From: Minwuia thermotolerans
GTDB lineage: Bacteria; Pseudomonadota; Alphaproteobacteria; Minwuiales; Minwuiaceae
Assembly (NCBI RefSeq): GCF_002924445.1
Contig: NZ_PIGG01000045.1
Coordinates: 62,001-126,000 of the forward strand
Direction of reading: 5' to 3'
Length of the DNA: 64,000 nt
Shown here in pieces: positions 34,605-41,820 of the stretch. Made by a program: the position numbers and the translations under genes. Numbering within the stretch: position 1 is the first letter of the stretch; the number at the start of each line of letters is the position of its first letter. The notes under the pieces are model-generated. The model worked only from the letters and a program-made list of their open reading frames with translations, searched no databases and was not told the DNA's origin.

Positions 34605-37571
34605 CTAGTTGATGGCGCTGAGCGGCGTGTCCCGCAGCTTCTCGCGGTAGGCGGTCATGAACTGCTCGAAGCGGCCGACCTGGGCGATCTCGGCGGCGAG
34701 ATTGCGGAATTCGGCAGTCTCGCGCTGATCCACCGAGGTCACCACTTGGAAGGCCGGCCATTCCGGCTTGTCCTGCATGCGGATGGTGAAGTCGTCCCTG
34801 ATCCGCTCCAGCGCCGGACGGTCGCCGGCCAGCGAGCTGGCGATGGCGAAACGCAGGATGTCCTGACGCGCTTCGGTGTCCAGTTCCTTGTTGGTGGTGC
34901 GCAGCTCCACCAAACGGGTGCTGAGCGAGACTGCCGCGCGTTGCCATTTCCGGGCGCGCCACAGTATCTCGGTCCGGACGTCGTTGACGTCCTCGCCTTC
35001 CAGGCCGTTGAGCAGCGCGAGGGCGCGCTCGTAGTGGCCGAGATCGGTCAGGCCACGGGCTTCCAGCATGCGGCGCTCCTTCACCTGATCGTCGGTCAGC
35101 GAGAGGTTGCGCGAAGCGCGCAGTGCGGAGATCGCCTCGTTCGGCTTCCGGTCCAGCAGATAGAGAACCGCCAGGCGCGTGGCGACCCGGGATTTCTCGA
35201 CCCCGGTCAAACGGTGGCGTACCTGGTGCTCCAGCAGCTTTGCGGCTTCGTCCAGCAGTTCCACCGCGGCCAGCCGGTCGGCCAGACGGCGGATCATCCG
35301 GTCGCCCCGGTCGCCCTCGGGGGTCAGCTCGCGGAAATCGTAATAGAGTCCCATGGCTGTCACCGGGGACATGGATTCGGCGTGCACACCCTCGAACAGG
35401 CTGGCGAAGACCTCGTTCATGCCGCCGGCCAGTTTCTGCGCCTCGGGCAGGTCCGGGAACTGCTCCACCGTCCGGCGCATGGTGACCATGCCCAGGCGGT
35501 AGTCGCCCACGTCGATGTAGAGCTCACCCAGACGCCGCATCAGATCGAATTCGAAGACGTCGCCGCGCCAGGCGAAGCGGAGCCGCTCCAGCCGCTCGAT
35601 GGCGTCTTTCCTGGTGATCCGCTCGTCGTCCAGCAGCAGGTCGGTCTCGGCGAAGCGCGCCCGCGCACGGACGGAGCGCTGCACGCTCTCCGAAAGTTCC
35701 GCGAACAGATCGGCGGCATCCTCGGTCTCGCCGGTCAGCGCCTTGATGCGCGCCGCCAGCAGGCGCGCCTCCTCGCGGCGCGCCTCCGTGCCGGCCTGCT
35801 TCAGCAGCTTGGCGACCTGTTCCTCGGCCAGCGCCGGATCATGCAGGTGCAGCGCCGTTTCGGCCAGGGCGATGCGGAACATCGGCTGCATGTCGGCCGG
35901 AAGTTCGTCCAGCGCCGTCAGACCGTAGCGGAACTCGCGCCGCGCCTCCTGGAATTCCCGGCGCTTGGCGGCAAGCAGCCCGCGGAACAGGGCCACGTCG
36001 CCAGCGTCCTTGAGCTGCGGATGACGCAGGTCCGCCGCCGCCTCCGCATACTGCCCGGCCAGCAGGCGCGCAACGCCACGCAGCGCCCGGTAGCCGGGAT
36101 CGATGTCGGCGCGCTTGTCGTCGTCCTCGATACGGGCCATCACGCCCAGCGCCTCGCTGGCCAGACCGTTGGCGACCATGAAGCGGGCGAGAATGCGCCG
36201 TTCGCCATTGCGGGCCAGCGGCTGGGCGACCGAGATGCGCTGCAGCAGGTCCTGGCGGATGGCCACGGGGTCTTCCTCGCCCTTCCACGTCGTCAGGTCG
36301 AGCACGCGCCGAGAGGGCGTCGGCGCACCGTCACCATTGAGCTTCGGCGGTCCTTCCGTCAGATGCGCGGCGGTCGTTGCCTCAGCGGCCAGATGCAGCG
36401 TCCGGGGTCCCGCGATCGAAAGGCCGGACTCGTCCACGGCCACGTCGAGGTCCAGTGACTTGAAGCGCACGGCGACGCCCTGCGGCGTCTCCGGCAGGTC
36501 GAACTTGACCAGCCGCCGCTCCGGCCTGACGCCAAGCGCCGCTTCCCGGAGCGGAATCAGGGCGATGCGGTCGCCGACCAGCGGGTCGTCGACGATCACC
36601 GGCCTGGCCGCGTCGGCCACGGCGGCGAACATCCTGGGACCGCGGGCGCTCTCGGCCTGGGCGTCGAAGATGACGGCGCTCTCCGCCCGTCCGCGGCCGC
36701 CGCCGATGTCCACCACCCAGTCGTTGCCATCGACCGTGATGTCCAGTGGCGAACCCGCCGCCACGTCGATGCGGAACAGGGTGCCGTCGCTGGAATGTTC
36801 GGGCTCGATGCGGTCGACCGGCCCCAGACCCGTGGTGGGCTGACCGCCGAAATCGGGCGTCATGTCGTCCCCGAACACCAGCCAGACATGCTCACCCCTG
36901 TGCAGGGCCGCAGCGCTGGTCCGGACCGGCCAGCGGAAACGGAAGATCGTGCGGCCGGGACGCAACTCGTGCTCGACCCGGACGGTCTGCGACGGGTCGG
37001 AGACGGGCCGGGGCGCCGGCTCGGCGGCGGCCTTCGCAGGTGCCGGCGCCTCGGCGCGGGCGGCCGGTTTCTTCGGTTCGGGCGCCGAAGCGGGTGCGGG
37101 CTTCGGTGATGGCGTGCGCATTTCCGCGGCCTCGCGGGCGCGGCCGAGTGCGTCGGCCAGCGGCTGCGTGGCATAGTCGGTCTTGCGCGCGGGTCGTGCG
37201 GGCCTGGCTGTCGCTGCGCCCAGGGCCACGTCGACAACGACCTTGGGACCGATCCGGAATGCCTTGAGGATGTCGCCCGACGGCGCCTCGAACCGCACGG
37301 TCCGGCCGTCGGCCGAGACCTTCACCGCACCGATCGCACGCGGCGCCCGGGCGCGGAACTGCGAGATGTCGAAGTCCGCCGCCCGCTCGAAGCGGACGCT
37401 GACCTCGCCCTGCGCCTCGCTGACCGTGTACTCCACGGGGGAGGTCCAGTCGAAGACCGCGCGGCTGTAGCCCGCATGGTCGCCAAAGCGGATGTTGACG
37501 CTCTCGCGCGCCGCAGCCGGGCCGGCGGCCAGCACCACGAGAACCGAGATCGACAGCAGCAGATGTTTCAT
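34605..37571 (-). CDS. Large exported TPR protein of the flagellar motor operon
   Basis: 988 residues with a Sec signal peptide (KHLLLSISVLVVLAAGPAAARE). The first 110 residues (VNIRFGDHAGYSRAVFDW and following) look like a beta-rich AMIN-like domain. A Pro/Ala/Lys-rich linker (about 125-195) follows, then a second beta region. From about residue 440 to the end it is helical, with TPR-like repeats (AEAAADLRHPQLKDAG, LDELPADMQPMFRIALAETA, GHYERALALLNGLEG). It is the last gene of the fliL-fliM operon and overlaps a MotB-like gene by 4 bp. Presumably periplasmic; a structural motor role is inferred from context only. Confidence 0.8.
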   Translation of the reverse strand: MKHLLLSISVLVVLAAGPAAARESVNIRFGDHAGYSRAVFDWTSPVEYTVSEAQGEVSVRFERAADFDISQFRARAPRAIGAVKVSADGRTVRFEAPSGDILKAFRIGPKVVVDVALGAATARPARPARKTDYATQPLADALGRAREAAEMRTPSPKPAPASAPEPKKPAARAEAPAPAKAAAEPAPRPVSDPSQTVRVEHELRPGRTIFRFRWPVRTSAAALHRGEHVWLVFGDDMTPDFGGQPTTGLGPVDRIEPEHSSDGTLFRIDVAAGSPLDITVDGNDWVVDIGGGRGRAESAVIFDAQAESARGPRMFAAVADAARPVIVDDPLVGDRIALIPLREAALGVRPERRLVKFDLPETPQGVAVRFKSLDLDVAVDESGLSIAGPRTLHLAAEATTAAHLTEGPPKLNGDGAPTPSRRVLDLTTWKGEEDPVAIRQDLLQRISVAQPLARNGERRILARFMVANGLASEALGVMARIEDDDKRADIDPGYRALRGVARLLAGQYAEAAADLRHPQLKDAGDVALFRGLLAAKRREFQEARREFRYGLTALDELPADMQPMFRIALAETALHLHDPALAEEQVAKLLKQAGTEARREEARLLAARIKALTGETEDAADLFAELSESVQRSVRARARFAETDLLLDDERITRKDAIERLERLRFAWRGDVFEFDLMRRLGELYIDVGDYRLGMVTMRRTVEQFPDLPEAQKLAGGMNEVFASLFEGVHAESMSPVTAMGLYYDFRELTPEGDRGDRMIRRLADRLAAVELLDEAAKLLEHQVRHRLTGVEKSRVATRLAVLYLLDRKPNEAISALRASRNLSLTDDQVKERRMLEARGLTDLGHYERALALLNGLEGEDVNDVRTEILWRARKWQRAAVSLSTRLVELRTTNKELDTEARQDILRFAIASSLAGDRPALERIRDDFTIRMQDKPEWPAFQVVTSVDQRETAEFRNLAAEIAQVGRFEQFMTAYREKLRDTPLSAIN

Positions 37572-38176
37572 CCGCGATTCTCCGAAGCGACATCGAGAAT
37601 GATCTGCAGCGCTGCCGGAGTCTCGCCGGGGCTGAAGCGGGTCTCGACGGGAATGGCGGTGTCGACGCCGCCGCGTTGGAGCAGCGCCGCCAGACTGCCG
37701 GCCTGTCTGAGGCCGTCATCGAAAACGCCGAGAACGCCGGCGCGGCGGCCCTGTGAAGCTGGAAGAATTACCGCCACGCGAAGGGGATATCCGGCAGATC
37801 TGAGATACTGGATCATGTCGGCGGGCGCCGCGGGCGCGACGCCGCCGATCGGCTGCTGCAGGGCCACGCCCGAGGCCAGCCGCACGACCGTCCAGGGCCA
37901 GCCGGCGCGCGCCAGACGCTCCGCCAGTACAGTCGCCAGGTAATCGCTTTCGGCGTCGGCCACCACCGGGGCGCGGCGCATGGCCAGCGCCGCCGGCCCC
38001 GGATCCGGCGCCACGGTCTGCCACTGGCCGTCATTGCTGCCGAGTACCAGCGCCAGGCGGTCAAGCTTCGGCGCGTCGTACTCCGAAATCGCCAGCAGCA
38101 TGACGAAGAAGGCGCCCAGCACCGCGGCGAGGTCGGAGAATGCGATCAGCCAGGAGGTTCTGGGCATGCCTGTCAC
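37568..38176 (-). CDS. MotB-like membrane protein with the stator Asp
   Basis: 202 residues. After eight residues comes WLIAFSDLAAVLGAFFVMLL, which lines up with the MotB helix, including the proton-carrying Asp (D15) and the AFF motif. The periplasmic part of about 165 residues is shorter than in MotB and lacks the clear GHTD/RA peptidoglycan-binding signature of OmpA domains; only a weak resemblance remains (VAVILPASQGRRAGV onward). Its start overlaps the other MotB-like gene by 4 bp (ATGA) and its stop overlaps the TPR gene by 4 bp. It is not a standard MotB, and no MotA is next to it. Confidence 0.7.
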   Translation of the reverse strand: MTGMPRTSWLIAFSDLAAVLGAFFVMLLAISEYDAPKLDRLALVLGSNDGQWQTVAPDPGPAALAMRRAPVVADAESDYLATVLAERLARAGWPWTVVRLASGVALQQPIGGVAPAAPADMIQYLRSAGYPLRVAVILPASQGRRAGVLGVFDDGLRQAGSLAALLQRGGVDTAIPVETRFSPGETPAALQIILDVASENRG

Positions 38177-38799
38177 GCCTCCGGCGCCGGCTGCAGCAGG
38201 AACTCGATCGAGGCGGACGGATCGCGTTGGACGCGCAAGGCGAAACGTGCGGGATCGACGCCGTTGCGGATCAGATCGCCGCCCAGCGCCGCCGCTCGGC
38301 GGCGGGCCAGCGACGTGTCGCCCGCGTCGCCCATCACCAGGACGAGATCCAACCTTTCATTCGCGCCAGTTTCACCCAGCAGCGCGGCGAGCCGGTTCAC
38401 CATGGCGATCCGGGTCGGCCTGAGTATGCTGCTGTCCGCGCCGAAGGCCTTGCGCTGCGGCATGCTGACGGCGATGAGACCCTCGGATGCCTGCAACCGC
38501 CATTCACCGCGATCCATGTGCCCGTCGAACAGTTCCACCAGCTGCGCCTCCAACGCGTCGGCCACCAGCGTCAGCGGCCCATCGGGCCGGGGCGCCAGCT
38601 CGACCGGCGCGATGGTGATGCCGGCAAGCACGGCACGGGCGCGGGCCTCGGAAATCTCGGCGTTCGAGTTCAACATGATGAAGAAGGCCAGAAGGATCAG
38701 GTAAAGCGCCAGGAACAGCACCACATTGGCCTGGTCCGGTCCCGCCGGCGCATCGGCCTCGGGCGTCGTCGGCTCTGTTTCGGTGGTGCTGGTGTACAT
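38173..38799 (-). CDS. MotB-like membrane protein lacking the stator Asp
   Basis: 208 residues: a Thr/Pro/Glu-rich cytoplasmic tail (1-24), one membrane helix VVLFLALYLILLAFFIMLNS (about 26-45) and a periplasmic region ending in an OmpA-like fold (FGADSSILRPTRIAMVNRLAALL, then LVLVMGDAGDTSLARRRAAAL and LIRNGVDPARF). The helix keeps the AFF of MotB, but the Asp position is non-polar, so it should not carry protons itself. It lies 51 bp after motE and overlaps the second MotB-like gene by 4 bp. The two look like diverged paralogues. Confidence 0.7.
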   Translation of the reverse strand: MYTSTTETEPTTPEADAPAGPDQANVVLFLALYLILLAFFIMLNSNAEISEARARAVLAGITIAPVELAPRPDGPLTLVADALEAQLVELFDGHMDRGEWRLQASEGLIAVSMPQRKAFGADSSILRPTRIAMVNRLAALLGETGANERLDLVLVMGDAGDTSLARRRAAALGGDLIRNGVDPARFALRVQRDPSASIEFLLQPAPEA

Positions 38800-38850
38800 G
38801 CCGCAAGCCTAGCGCCGCCATGGTTAAGGCCGCGTAAAGCGAAGACCGCC

Positions 38851-39546
38851 TCAGCGCTTGAGGCGCTCTTCCAGATCCTCGCGTGTCGCCAGCTCGATCG
38901 TCAGCTCCTGCGCCCGTTCGGGGGTCATCTCGGCCATGATGCCGGCGATGCTGGTTTCCTTCATGCGGGCGCTGACCTCGATCAGCACGTCCATCTCGAT
39001 CTGCTCGAAGATGCGGGCCGCGTCCTTGGCCTTCATCTTCTCGTAGACCTTGACCAGCCGCGCGAAGCGATACTCCTCGGCCTCGTCGTGCTTCTTCACC
39101 AGACCCTGGATGCGCTTCTCGAGCTGCTGCAGGGTGGCGATCTTCTCGTCGATGCGCTGTTCCGTGGCCGCCAGCAGGTTTTCGCGGACGTCCAGATCGG
39201 CCGCGCGCCCCTCGATCTGGTCGCGGCGGCGGGCGAGGTTTTCCAGCAGCGCGATCTCGGAGGGCGAGAACGTGGTCGGATCCCTTTCCGCCAGGCTGCC
39301 GGACAGCGCCGTGGCGGGTTCGGCCTCCGCTGTCTTCTCGGCGGCTTCGGGGTCGACCGGCTCCTTGGCGGCAGCGGTCTCGTCCTCGGCGGCAGTTTCG
39401 TTTCCGGCGTCGGCCTGGGCCTGAGCCTGGGCGAGAGTGACAAGGGCGCCCTCGCCTTCCTGGAAGATGTCGGTAATGCGGACGCCGAGCACCATGGTGG
39501 CGGCGATGACGGTAACGGGCAGCAGCCTGATGCGGAGTGCTTTCAC
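38851..39546 (-). CDS. motE: MotE-like flagellar protein
   Basis: 231 residues. An N-terminal membrane or signal segment (LRIRLLPVTVIAATMVLGV) precedes an Ala/Glu-rich linker (about 40-90), a coiled coil (ALLENLARRRDQIEGRAADL to EKRIQGLVKKHDEAEE) and a C-terminal MgtE-N-like domain (VYEKMKAKDAARIFEQIEMDV). This is the MotE layout; in Sinorhizobium MotE is a periplasmic chaperone for MotC. One base separates it from the DUF6468 gene. Its client here might be the large TPR protein, which is speculation. Confidence 0.82.
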   Translation of the reverse strand: MKALRIRLLPVTVIAATMVLGVRITDIFQEGEGALVTLAQAQAQADAGNETAAEDETAAAKEPVDPEAAEKTAEAEPATALSGSLAERDPTTFSPSEIALLENLARRRDQIEGRAADLDVRENLLAATEQRIDEKIATLQQLEKRIQGLVKKHDEAEEYRFARLVKVYEKMKAKDAARIFEQIEMDVLIEVSARMKETSIAGIMAEMTPERAQELTIELATREDLEERLKR

Positions 39547-39547
39547 G

Positions 39548-39958
39548 TCAGCGGACCTTTCTCAGTGCCTGCAGCAGATCGTGCTCGGCAGGGCTGCGCT
39601 CCTGGCGCTGCGTCTCGGCGGGTGCGGCGGCCTTGCTCCGGTCGACGCCCTGTTCGATGCGCTCGGCCACCTTGCCGCCGCTGTGGACCACGACTTCCAG
39701 CTCGTCGAGCATGCTGCGCCCAGCATCGATCCGCTTCTGCAGATCGGCGCCGACCGCATTGGCCGCGACCTTGAGTTCGCCGACGCTGGCGCGGGCATTC
39801 TCGGTCGCCTGGTGGAAGGAGCGGACCAGCTCCGCCATTTCCCCCTGAGCGTTGCGCAGACGCGACAGACGCCGGTTCAGGACGAAGCAGTAGATGACCG
39901 TTGCCGCCAGCAGCACCGCCAGCAGCCCGTCAAGGATCACGTCGACGCCAAGGTCCAT
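39548..39958 (-). CDS. DUF6468-type flagellar operon protein
   Basis: 136 residues starting MDLGVDVILDGLLAVLLAAT with a single N-terminal membrane helix, then NRRLSRLRNAQGEMAELVRSF and a coiled-coil region (about 45-110) ending in a charged tail. Small proteins of this pattern follow fliM in several Rhodospirillales-like flagellar operons; their role is unknown. The ATG overlaps the fliM stop by one base (TGATG) and the stop lies one base from motE, so translation is probably coupled. Confidence 0.7.
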   Translation of the reverse strand: MDLGVDVILDGLLAVLLAATVIYCFVLNRRLSRLRNAQGEMAELVRSFHQATENARASVGELKVAANAVGADLQKRIDAGRSMLDELEVVVHSGGKVAERIEQGVDRSKAAAPAETQRQERSPAEHDLLQALRKVR

Positions 39959-41064
39959 CAGTTCCCCCGGAACTTGCGGTGGCTGCGGTCGATCTTGACC
40001 GCGATGTTCTGGCCGCGCCGGCCCATGCGGCCCACGCCCATGGGAATGCCGCCGCAATGGAGCTGGATCGCGCTTTCCGGCGAAGCGTTGAGCAGCAGGG
40101 TGTCCCCCTTCCGCATCGCCATGAACTTGCTCAGCGGCATCGTCTGTTCGTCCAGCACGGCGACGAGGTCGACGTCGGTCTGCCAGAGCTCGGTCGCCAG
40201 ATGGTTCTCCCAGATACTGTCACGGCCGAACTTCTCGCCCATGAACATCTGAAGCAGCAGTTCGCGGATCGGCTCCAGCGTGGCGTAGGGCAGCAGCACG
40301 TCCAGCCGGCCGCCACGGTCTTCCATGTCGATGCGCAGCTTGATGACGATGGCCGCGTTGGCGGGCCGGGCGATGGTCGCGAAGCGCGGATTGGTCTCGA
40401 CGCGGTCGAAGTTGAAGGAAACCGGTGACAGCGGCTCGAAAGCGGCGGCCATGTCGGCCAGGACCACGGCGACCATGCGCTCGACCAGATTGCGCTCGAT
40501 GGTGGTGTAGGGCCGGCCCTCGATGCGCATCGCCGCGGTGCCGCGGCGCCCGCCCAGCAACACGTCGACGATCGAGTAGATCAGCGAGGAATCGACGGTG
40601 ATCAGACCGTAGTTGTCCCACTCGACGGCGCGGAAGACGGAGAGGATCGCCGGCAGTGGAATGGAGTTCAGATAGTCGCCGAAGCGGATCGAGGTGATGT
40701 TGTCCAGCGTCACCTCGACATTGTCCGAGGTGAAATTGCGCAGGCTCGTCGTCATCATCCGGACCAGCCGGTCGAAGACGACCTCCAGCATCGGCAGCCG
40801 CTCGTAGTTGACCAGCGCCGAGTTGATGATCGCCTTGATACCGGACTTGTCTGTGTCGTCCTCGTCGCCCGCGTCGAAGCCGAGCAGGCTGTCGATCTCG
40901 TCCTGGTTCAGGATGCGGTTGGTGGCGCCGCCGCTCTCGCCGTCGCCGGTAAGCTTGTCCCAGGCGGCGGCCATATCATCTTCGTTGTCCTTGGCCGCGG
41001 CTTCCGCCGCATTGGCCTCGGACCACTGTTCAGCCAGCTTGTCCTGGTCGACGGTGTCACTCAT
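39958..41064 (-). CDS. fliM: Flagellar motor switch protein FliM
   Basis: 368 residues. The N-terminal ILNQDEIDSLLGF motif (about 50-63) is the CheY-P binding site, but it lies unusually far from the N-terminus behind an acidic, Ala-rich leader. The middle CheC-like domain has the GG motif in DVLLGGRRGTAAM, and the C-terminal SpoA part ends in GIPMGVGRMGRRGQNIAVKI. It forms the C-ring that sets rotation direction. I chose the ATG at 41064 with GGGAG 9 nt upstream; a TTG at 41073 would add three residues. Confidence 0.96.
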   Translation of the reverse strand: MSDTVDQDKLAEQWSEANAAEAAAKDNEDDMAAAWDKLTGDGESGGATNRILNQDEIDSLLGFDAGDEDDTDKSGIKAIINSALVNYERLPMLEVVFDRLVRMMTTSLRNFTSDNVEVTLDNITSIRFGDYLNSIPLPAILSVFRAVEWDNYGLITVDSSLIYSIVDVLLGGRRGTAAMRIEGRPYTTIERNLVERMVAVVLADMAAAFEPLSPVSFNFDRVETNPRFATIARPANAAIVIKLRIDMEDRGGRLDVLLPYATLEPIRELLLQMFMGEKFGRDSIWENHLATELWQTDVDLVAVLDEQTMPLSKFMAMRKGDTLLLNASPESAIQLHCGGIPMGVGRMGRRGQNIAVKIDRSHRKFRGN

Positions 41065-41095
41065 TCGACGCAACTCCCGATGACGGTGGAACGCA

Positions 41096-41716
41096 TTACT
41101 GAACCAGCATTTCCTTGAACAGTACGTCGCGGATACGGGCCGGACGTACGGACTGGTTCACGCGGATCATCAGCTCCTCCTTCAGCCGGTACATGCCGGC
41201 GGAGCCTCTGAGATCCTCGCGGCGCAGCTCTCTCAGATAGACCTGAAAATGATCGACGATCCGCGGCATGACGCGGTCGATCCGCTTGACGATGCTGCCG
41301 TCGCCGAACTCCAGCGCGACCTTGATCTTCAGATAGCGGGGCTGGCTGCCCGAGGTGTTGAGGTTCACCAGCATGTCCGGCAGTTCATAGAAGATCAGAT
41401 CGGAACCGGCGTAGGTCACGCGGCCGCCGCTGGGCACGCCGCCGCCATGGCCGTCGGCCCCGCCATGGCCATCGCTCTCGCCGCCGCCGTGATCGGACCC
41501 GCTCTCTTCCTTGCCATGCCCGTCTTCGACTGGCGCGTGGGATTCCGCGGCCGCCTCGGCAGGACTGTCGCCGCCCGAGAGCATCATGAAGGCCGCGCTG
41601 CCGCCGACAAGCAGCAGGACCGGCAGCGCGATGAAGAGCACCAGCACCTTGCCGCTGAGCTTCCTCTTGCGCGGCGCGTCACCGTCTTCCGGGACCTCGC
41701 CTTCCTCGTCCGCCAT
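41096..41716 (-). CDS. fliL: Flagellar basal-body protein FliL
   Basis: 206 residues from the ATG at 41716 (MADEEGEVPEDG). Layout: acidic/basic cytoplasmic tail, one membrane helix (VLVLFIALPVLLLVGGSAAF), a periplasmic His/Gly/Asp-rich linker of about 45 residues with several HGG and DGHG units, then the FliL domain with FYELPDMLVNLNTSGSQPRYLKIKV-type sequence and RIRDVLFKEMLVQ at the end. FliL rings surround the stator units. The His-rich linker might bind metal. First gene of the long minus-strand motor operon. Confidence 0.93.
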   Translation of the reverse strand: MADEEGEVPEDGDAPRKRKLSGKVLVLFIALPVLLLVGGSAAFMMLSGGDSPAEAAAESHAPVEDGHGKEESGSDHGGGESDGHGGADGHGGGVPSGGRVTYAGSDLIFYELPDMLVNLNTSGSQPRYLKIKVALEFGDGSIVKRIDRVMPRIVDHFQVYLRELRREDLRGSAGMYRLKEELMIRVNQSVRPARIRDVLFKEMLVQ

Positions 41717-41820
41717 GTTCACCGTTTCCCTGAATGGGTAATGCCTTGATGTCGTGAAGCGGAGCATCGGCGTTTTCGGTTAACAAAGCGTTGGAACCGG
41801 GGCAGCGGACGGGCAAAAAA

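Follow-up and report, generated by a model that had tools for sequence, protein, structure and literature searches.

A 64,000-nucleotide stretch of the Minwuia thermotolerans genome (contig NZ_PIGG01000045.1, positions 62,001 to 126,000; hereafter the window) carries, within a flagellar motor operon, two adjoining genes for MotB-like proteins, which we call B1 and B2, followed by the gene for a large tetratricopeptide repeat (TPR) protein that resembles MotK. We propose that B1 and B2 probably join, one half each, into the heterodimeric B subunit of a second flagellar stator, the A subunit of which would be MotA2, a PomA-type protein encoded elsewhere in the genome. As judged from sequence, these genes make up a conserved, split gene set for a second stator, in which one B gene is Asp-plus and the other Asp-minus, a reading that reaches beyond the first-pass annotation of this DNA, made from its letters alone. 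Labels beginning with G, C and L denote genomes, contigs and loci, G000 being the window's own genome.

The pair is set apart by the membrane Asp. The first-pass annotation had described a MotB-type helix without Asp in B1 and a MotB helix with its Asp (D15) in B2, and this contrast extends to their relatives. B1 of the window has Ala at this place, and in an alignment of 105 distinct B1 sequences the column held Ser in 66, Gly in 21, Ala in 16 and Asp in two, so that Asp is missing in 103. The same column of 104 distinct B2 sequences held Asp in every one (both sets had been cleared of proteins shorter than 160 aa and of sequences that shared their last 150 residues with another). Invariance of Asp in the membrane helix of B2 speaks for a channel. 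With Asp in only two of the 105 sequences, B1 would not be classed as a MotB by this residue, although it is derived from MotB.

Helix conservation was compared across the 47 loci holding all five compared proteins. Mean pairwise identity in the B1 helix was 0.57, against 0.23 elsewhere in the protein (ratio 2.46, at the 98th percentile of sequence windows); the ratio was 2.01 for B2, and 1.00, 0.89 and 1.53 for the controls MotE, FliL and DUF6468. Such strong conservation is as expected for a helix packed against protein, a need that a plain lipid anchor does not have. Among ten protein pairs, B1 and B2 had the most highly correlated distances, with a partial correlation of 0.57 after removal of the FliM and FliL signal, the second-best distance correlation being that of B2 with MotE (0.42; 46 loci for both). 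The two genes are also closely spaced, with gaps of -4 to +24 bp in 33 of 38 loci, and among the loci read one was seen without the other only at contig ends and in G140 (L234). Two types of homodimer could instead share MotA2, with (B2)2 working and (B1)2, non-conducting, occupying stator sites, held in reserve or regulating stator number and torque. A precedent is that Aquifex MotA works weakly with either of its two MotBs after a periplasmic swap (PMC4525482). The tight coupling of the genes, the matched distances and the near absence of single-gene loci fit a one-to-one partnership better, and we consider the shared use of MotA2 by homodimers unlikely.

Both proteins can be recognized as relatives of MotB. 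In Pfam, B2 of the window matched MotB_plug above the cut-off (E=2.5e-8), and B1 matched MotB_plug (E=0.0094) and OmpA (E=0.0017), both below it. At E<=0.1, MotB_plug was found in 13 of 18 B1 and 19 of 19 B2 proteins; OmpA matched four of these B1 and ten of these B2 proteins, the window's B2 having no OmpA match. Against PDB sequences, the B1 profile found PomB (8zyz, 2e-10) and MotB (6e-8), and the B2 profile found MotB (6ysf, 9e-34). Single-chain models were predicted with a mean pLDDT (predicted local distance difference test score) of 76.4 for B1 and 75.5 for B2. The B1 model aligned with PomB (Z 15.3, root-mean-square deviation (rmsd) 2.0, 124 residues aligned) and with Salmonella MotB (Z 14.3, rmsd 2.8, 133 aligned), and the B2 model with MotS (Z 13.0, rmsd 3.4, 126 aligned), PomB (Z 10.7, rmsd 3.5, 120 aligned) and Salmonella MotB (Z 10.2, rmsd 5.8, 133 aligned). 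Foldseek returned 74 matches at E<=0.001 for B1 and only seven for B2. Both periplasmic folds, as predicted, are thus MotB/PomB-like; a structural match to MotB or OmpA had been named beforehand as a test of the idea, and both proteins give one, B1 strongly and B2 more weakly.

The first-pass annotation had also read almost no peptidoglycan-binding signature in B2. This holds for the protein of the window, which has Pro and Gln in place of the peptidoglycan-binding Asp and Arg, and fails for most of its family: the OmpA Asp is retained in 64 of the 104 B2 sequences, and Asp and Arg together likewise in 64. The Arg by itself is retained in 94 of the 104, and in 93 of the 105 B1 sequences. All six B2 proteins of the genus Minwuia are without the OmpA Asp, and two of these, the window's included, are also without the Arg.

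In the genome of the window the gene for MotA2 lies outside the window, at G000:C69:25331-26113, some 1.4 kb upstream of flhA. All 12 pair-bearing genomes read have an orphan PomA-type MotA2, followed at a distance of 1.4-1.7 kb by flhA. No MotB-like gene was seen near MotA2 in the stretches from these 12 genomes, the same search finding motB beside three canonical motA genes, nor in any of 20 stretches from 20 further genomes, where flhA lay downstream in 17, upstream in one and outside the stretch in two. MotA2 falls in the MotA_ExbB family (PF01618), and its profile matched PomA (8bri) along positions 3-252 of 257, with E=8e-73. Roles in contact with FliG have been assigned to charged residues of MotA, an Arg and a Glu (PMC4525482), and of 11 MotA2 proteins all have the Arg and two the Glu. 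PF20560 (MotA_N) is misleading as a marker for every flagellar MotA, since it does not report MotA2; by that marker the pair would seem to be without an A subunit, a reading overturned by the neighbors of PF01618 matches.

A canonical stator, the presence of which the first-pass annotation had proposed to check, does exist besides the pair, as E. coli-type MotA (PF20560) was detected in the same 12 genomes. The pair might therefore partner canonical MotA and swap with canonical MotB in a single stator pool, an idea that fits with the single FliM of the ten of these genomes that were covered. Canonical MotA is also present in genomes without the pair, and it is MotA2 that follows the pair, which makes this the most improbable of the alternatives that we weigh.

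The extent to which MotA2 follows the pair was counted across 289 genomes of the class, Alphaproteobacteria, in which we detected FliM in 160, the TPR protein in 153, B1 in 75 and MotA2 in 74. B1 and MotA2 occurred together in 70, B1 only in five, MotA2 only in four and neither in 210; within the 160 genomes with FliM the corresponding numbers were 70, 4, 3 and 83. MotA2 was scored at E<=1e-75, a threshold placed, with the scores in view, in the gap that runs from 1.2e-76 to 3.0e-72 and valid within the class only, since PomA-type MotA proteins with their own MotB reach 1.3e-78 outside it. The B1 threshold of E<=1e-16 likewise applies within the class only, because MotB-like proteins outside reach 1.7e-19. 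It gave 72 genomes, for part of which the B1 sequences were read, and included G085 (2.9e-17), scored by score alone and with its match apart from the TPR gene; three weaker matches (G094, G113, G204) were added as neighbors of the TPR gene, and without them the table reads 67/5/7/210. These counts also bear on whether B1 and B2 form a structural, non-conducting ring, in which they would be OmpA-like spacers anchoring MotK to membrane and wall, like other scaffolds of complex motors. Such a ring would suit the operon shared with motE and motK, the OmpA-like domains and the Asp-less B1. It does not account for a membrane Asp invariant in 104 of 104 B2 proteins, and the pair follows MotA2 (together in 70 of the 79 genomes having either) more closely than it follows MotK (TPR protein in 153 of the 289 genomes vs B1 in 75), so that we think a purely structural role quite improbable, if slightly less so than a partnership with canonical MotA.

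Similar loci were found in another class of the phylum (families f167 and f186). Searching 150 genomes across the phylum with the B1 profile gave nothing outside the class beyond the score of a plain MotB (best 1.7e-19). The nearest relatives of MotA2 outside the class (to 1.3e-78) adjoin MotB-like genes, and 20 such outgroup loci were hand-picked from profile matches. Ten of them have motA, an Asp-less B and an Asp-bearing B adjacent and in that order, a proportion that is no frequency because the loci were hand-picked. The Asp-less B carries Glu in nine and Gln in one, as counted by eye from the FF pair. Of the remaining ten loci, eight have one Asp-bearing MotB and two have two. A 138-row tree separates the Asp-less B groups of the two classes; in a chosen 60-row subset minus long branches, a single clade gave p 0.60 in the approximately unbiased (AU) test, so that a single origin was not rejected. 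The two loci with two Asp-keeping MotB genes, L178 (G302) and L179 (G311), have these after motA in an Aquifex-like arrangement.

Several findings weigh against a heterodimeric stator built on MotA2. Two B1 proteins retain the Asp, those of G048 (L047) and G129 (L221); in G129, B1 and the TPR gene are on different contigs, a second FliM is present and MotA2 is absent. Both branch low within the B1 clade of the 138-row tree, though not in the 60-row tree; in the former a branch with 94% support (not starred) divides the Asp-less rows from all the others. These two proteins may show, as far as such comparisons indicate, the state that preceded loss of the Asp. The OmpA Asp is missing in 40 of the 104 B2 sequences, those of the genus Minwuia among them, and the Glu of PomA (E96), counterpart of the FliG-contacting E98 of MotA, was found by eye in only two of 11 MotA2 proteins. 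In this class motA2 and the B pair are in separate operons. B1 occurs without MotA2 in G040, G067, G077, G129 and G131, and MotA2 without B1 in G039, G052, G275 and G287; all nine genomes are drafts of 80-410 contigs, for which assembly loss is a possible cause only. Fisher values for the co-occurrence ignore kinship and are not relied on, and when 41 FliM rows from genomes picked for having both or neither were placed on a tree, the best tree had 13 changes of the joint state, of which only two are forced by well-supported branches, support too low for counting independent co-losses. Finally, the loci of the other class have no clear MotK, with weak matches to its N-terminal part in four of 20 genomes, and such pairs are therefore independent of MotK.

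From the conserved sequences, the gene order, the Asp states, the co-occurrence with MotA2 and the homology to MotB and PomA, we infer the following arrangement for the heterodimeric stator. Five MotA2 subunits would turn around one B1 helix and one B2 helix in physical contact as a heterodimer. The ion-binding Asp would be on B2 only, and because only B2 has it the unit would conduct ions through one site and not two. In published 5:2 models the two MotB chains alternate in strokes of 36 degrees, and each chain has a proton step to itself (PMC9175137, PMC9389320); here one ion would be used per 72 degrees in a lopsided cycle. As the periplasmic halves of B1 and B2 differ, one could grip the wall while the other grips the scaffold: B2 would hold peptidoglycan in lineages that retain the motif, and the periplasmic domain of B1, B2 or both would touch the MotE-MotK scaffold, whose genes share the operon, docking the unit at the motor. 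Canonical MotAB would persist as the other stator. We suggest more tentatively that this could be a natural single-site 5:2 rotary motor, made of a MotA2 pentamer, a B1-B2 heterodimer and one ion-binding carboxylate, and serving as a second stator in many Alphaproteobacteria and also in another class, where Glu or Gln replaces the Asp; we rate this as possible, a shade short of probable. The asymmetric stator-like unit beside a TPR scaffold proposed in the first-pass annotation is supported indirectly by the Asp pattern, the helix conservation, the B1-B2 coupling, the co-occurrence with MotA2, the loci of the other class and the predicted folds. It needed correction in that the presumed A subunit is outside the operon, the TPR protein and MotE have precedents, and one motA with two motB genes is known from Aquifex.

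MotA2, PomA-like over nearly its full length and found alongside canonical MotAB, resembles the second stators of the PomAB/MotPS type. To our knowledge, these have a single B gene that adjoins the A gene and encodes both the Asp and the peptidoglycan-binding motif, and in this they differ from the pair. The motA-motB1-motB2 operon of Aquifex aeolicus also combines one MotA with two MotBs of strongly different periplasmic parts (PMC4525482, PMC4987623), and chimeras of either one make E. coli slightly motile (PMC4525482). The N-terminal and helix parts of the Aquifex MotBs are 97% identical (PMC4525482), whereas the helices of B1 and B2 differ, one being Asp-less in almost every lineage, and motA2 is at a distance from the B pair. 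In Myxococcus, AglR-AglQ-AglS likewise comprise one A-type and two B-type proteins, the make-up of the B dimer being described as unknown; unlike B1 and B2, AglQ and AglS both bear the Asp, and the system drives gliding rather than a flagellum (PMC9389320). Cereibacter sphaeroides Fla2 (MotE-MotK) and Caulobacter (CC_2059-CC_2058) share with the window a fliL operon holding motE and a gene for a large TPR protein, periplasmic and with an AMIN domain in those systems, predicted to be exported and weakly AMIN-like here, of a type thought to recruit or activate stators (PMC10954123, PMC13023049). The Cereibacter gene order is fliL-pflI-motE-motA-motK, with motA standing between motE and motK where the present operon has a MotB-like pair with one Asp-less member, and its MotK has 652 aa against 988 aa here (PMC10954123). 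The claim that no system of this make-up had been described therefore needs dividing. MotE with a TPR protein, and one motA with two motB genes, have precedents in Cereibacter, Caulobacter and Aquifex; for a conserved Asp-minus MotB partner, or an Asp-plus/Asp-minus MotB pair, no account was found in the literature searched, most subscription papers being beyond reach. Relatives of both MotE and the MotK-like TPR protein are already described; the new part is the B pair.

The features of the motor operon are collected in the table.

Table. Genes of the motor operon, with positions in the window.
Feature	Position	Strand	Basis
MotK-like TPR protein, 988 aa	34605-37571	-	Open reading frame (ORF); start of signal type, by eye; weakly AMIN-like region and TPR solenoid
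B2, MotB-like, 202 aa	37568-38176	-	ORF; Asp15 helix; OmpA-like domain without the usual peptidoglycan-binding Asp and Arg
B1, MotB-like, 208 aa	38173-38799	-	ORF; single membrane helix with Ala31 at the Asp position; OmpA-like periplasmic domain
MotE (E-ring type, FlbB/FlgY relative)	38851-39546	-	MgtE_N 1.5e-4 and NCBIfam collar_FlbB 4.1e-6, both below curated cut-offs
DUF6468 membrane protein	39548-39958	-	PF20072 1.8e-18
FliM, C-ring switch protein	39958-41073	-	TIGR01397 2.4e-95
FliL	41096-41767	-	PF03748 1.8e-20

The ORF list gives the order fliL-fliM-DUF6468-motE-B1-B2-TPR, with the trio of B1, B2 and the TPR gene downstream of the first four genes, as first annotated. The 4-bp overlaps reported for the trio were read in the sequence for B1/B2 and B2/TPR; motE and B1 are separated by a gap of 51 bp. 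B2 starts with a GTG within the stop of B1, and an ATG follows three codons further. The DUF6468 ORF as listed starts at 40057, the Met near 39958 being the likelier start; by position alone, its product is possibly PflI.

The trio also occurs in many related flagellated genomes, its conservation there having been set beforehand as a further test. The B1-B2-TPR order was found again in other families of the class, and the trio comes after motE in relatives. The TPR gene lies at most 4 kb downstream on the same strand in 64 of the 72 genomes with a strong B1 match. By eye, a CheZ-like gene stands between motE and B1 in seven of the 12 related loci printed, together with a CheY-type receiver in five of these (L041-L044, L049) and by itself in L046 and L059; the operon of the window has neither. 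In other families the genes at this place resemble motA in size, but by eye they are this CheY-type receiver and CheZ-like gene. Among the best 80 of at least 534 loci selected by the TPR protein, four of them repeats of loci already in the sample, motE and the TPR gene were both visible in 59; 49 of these have B1 and B2 and ten have neither, and MotK is therefore independent of the pair. In L050 (G045), with a recR-like neighbor, and in G269, the B1-B2 pair lies apart from the TPR gene, and the pair is thus able to leave the motor operon and yet stay together.

From its signal-type start, read by eye, the TPR protein is predicted to be exported. Its domain matches in the window are weak on their own (AMIN-like E=0.02, below the Pfam cut-off); at E<=0.1, AMIN-like matches were found in ten of 15 relatives (best 9e-7) and TPR_19 in 11 of 15. 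Against PDB sequences it matched TPR proteins, mostly designed, with no flagellar protein among the matches. The gene order and the TPR matches in relatives identify it, like MotK, as a large TPR protein encoded downstream of motE. In Cereibacter, MotE and MotK bind MotB2 and both are needed for rotation (PMC10954123). MotE has been placed in one group with FlbB and FlgY, both E-ring proteins, and a resemblance to PflA has been stated for MotK, MotC and CC_2058; an E-ring with spokes has been proposed for MotE/MotK relatives, the alphaproteobacterial MotE still awaiting imaging (PMC13023049). MotE, put forward in the first-pass annotation as a possible chaperone, is now proposed as a structural protein of the E-ring, a chaperone role still being allowed there (PMC10954123, PMC13023049). 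A periplasmic scaffold of TPR protein and MotE likewise has precedents in MotK/MotE of Cereibacter and CC_2058/CC_2059 of Caulobacter (PMC10954123, PMC13023049).

Other MotA/ExbB-type matches read in G000, G003 and G048 were ExbB-type genes adjoining ExbD, plus one weak match in G000. The latter, outside the window on G000:C53 (L163:54-2542), is a three-helix membrane protein beside a 451-aa protein that starts with an Asp-bearing MotB-like helix; by position the locus is not flagellar. Also outside the window, G000:C64 (L161:1923-4687) and G003 (L155:799-3314) hold, by eye, an ExbB-type gene, two ExbD-like genes and a TonB-like gene; one ExbD-like gene has the usual Asp (LTPLIDVVF) and the other Asn (LPLINVVF), which gives the genome another B pair of the Asp-plus/Asp-minus kind, this one in a 5:2-type energizer. 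Three MotA/ExbB-type matches on G000:C4, C15 and C37 have identical scores, and two share identical contig coordinates; these are perhaps duplicated contigs in the assembly.

The layout suggests that the genes of one stator can be split over two flagellar operons and hence escape annotation, and it may link the MotE-MotK scaffold to one particular second stator. If the single-site motor is real, one ion would drive one 72-degree step, where the symmetric model has two ions and two 36-degree strokes, and the symmetric two-site design of MotAB would not be obligatory. A lineage that keeps an Asp-plus and an Asp-minus chain would then be a natural test of the need for both sites, and of step size, ion cost and torque.

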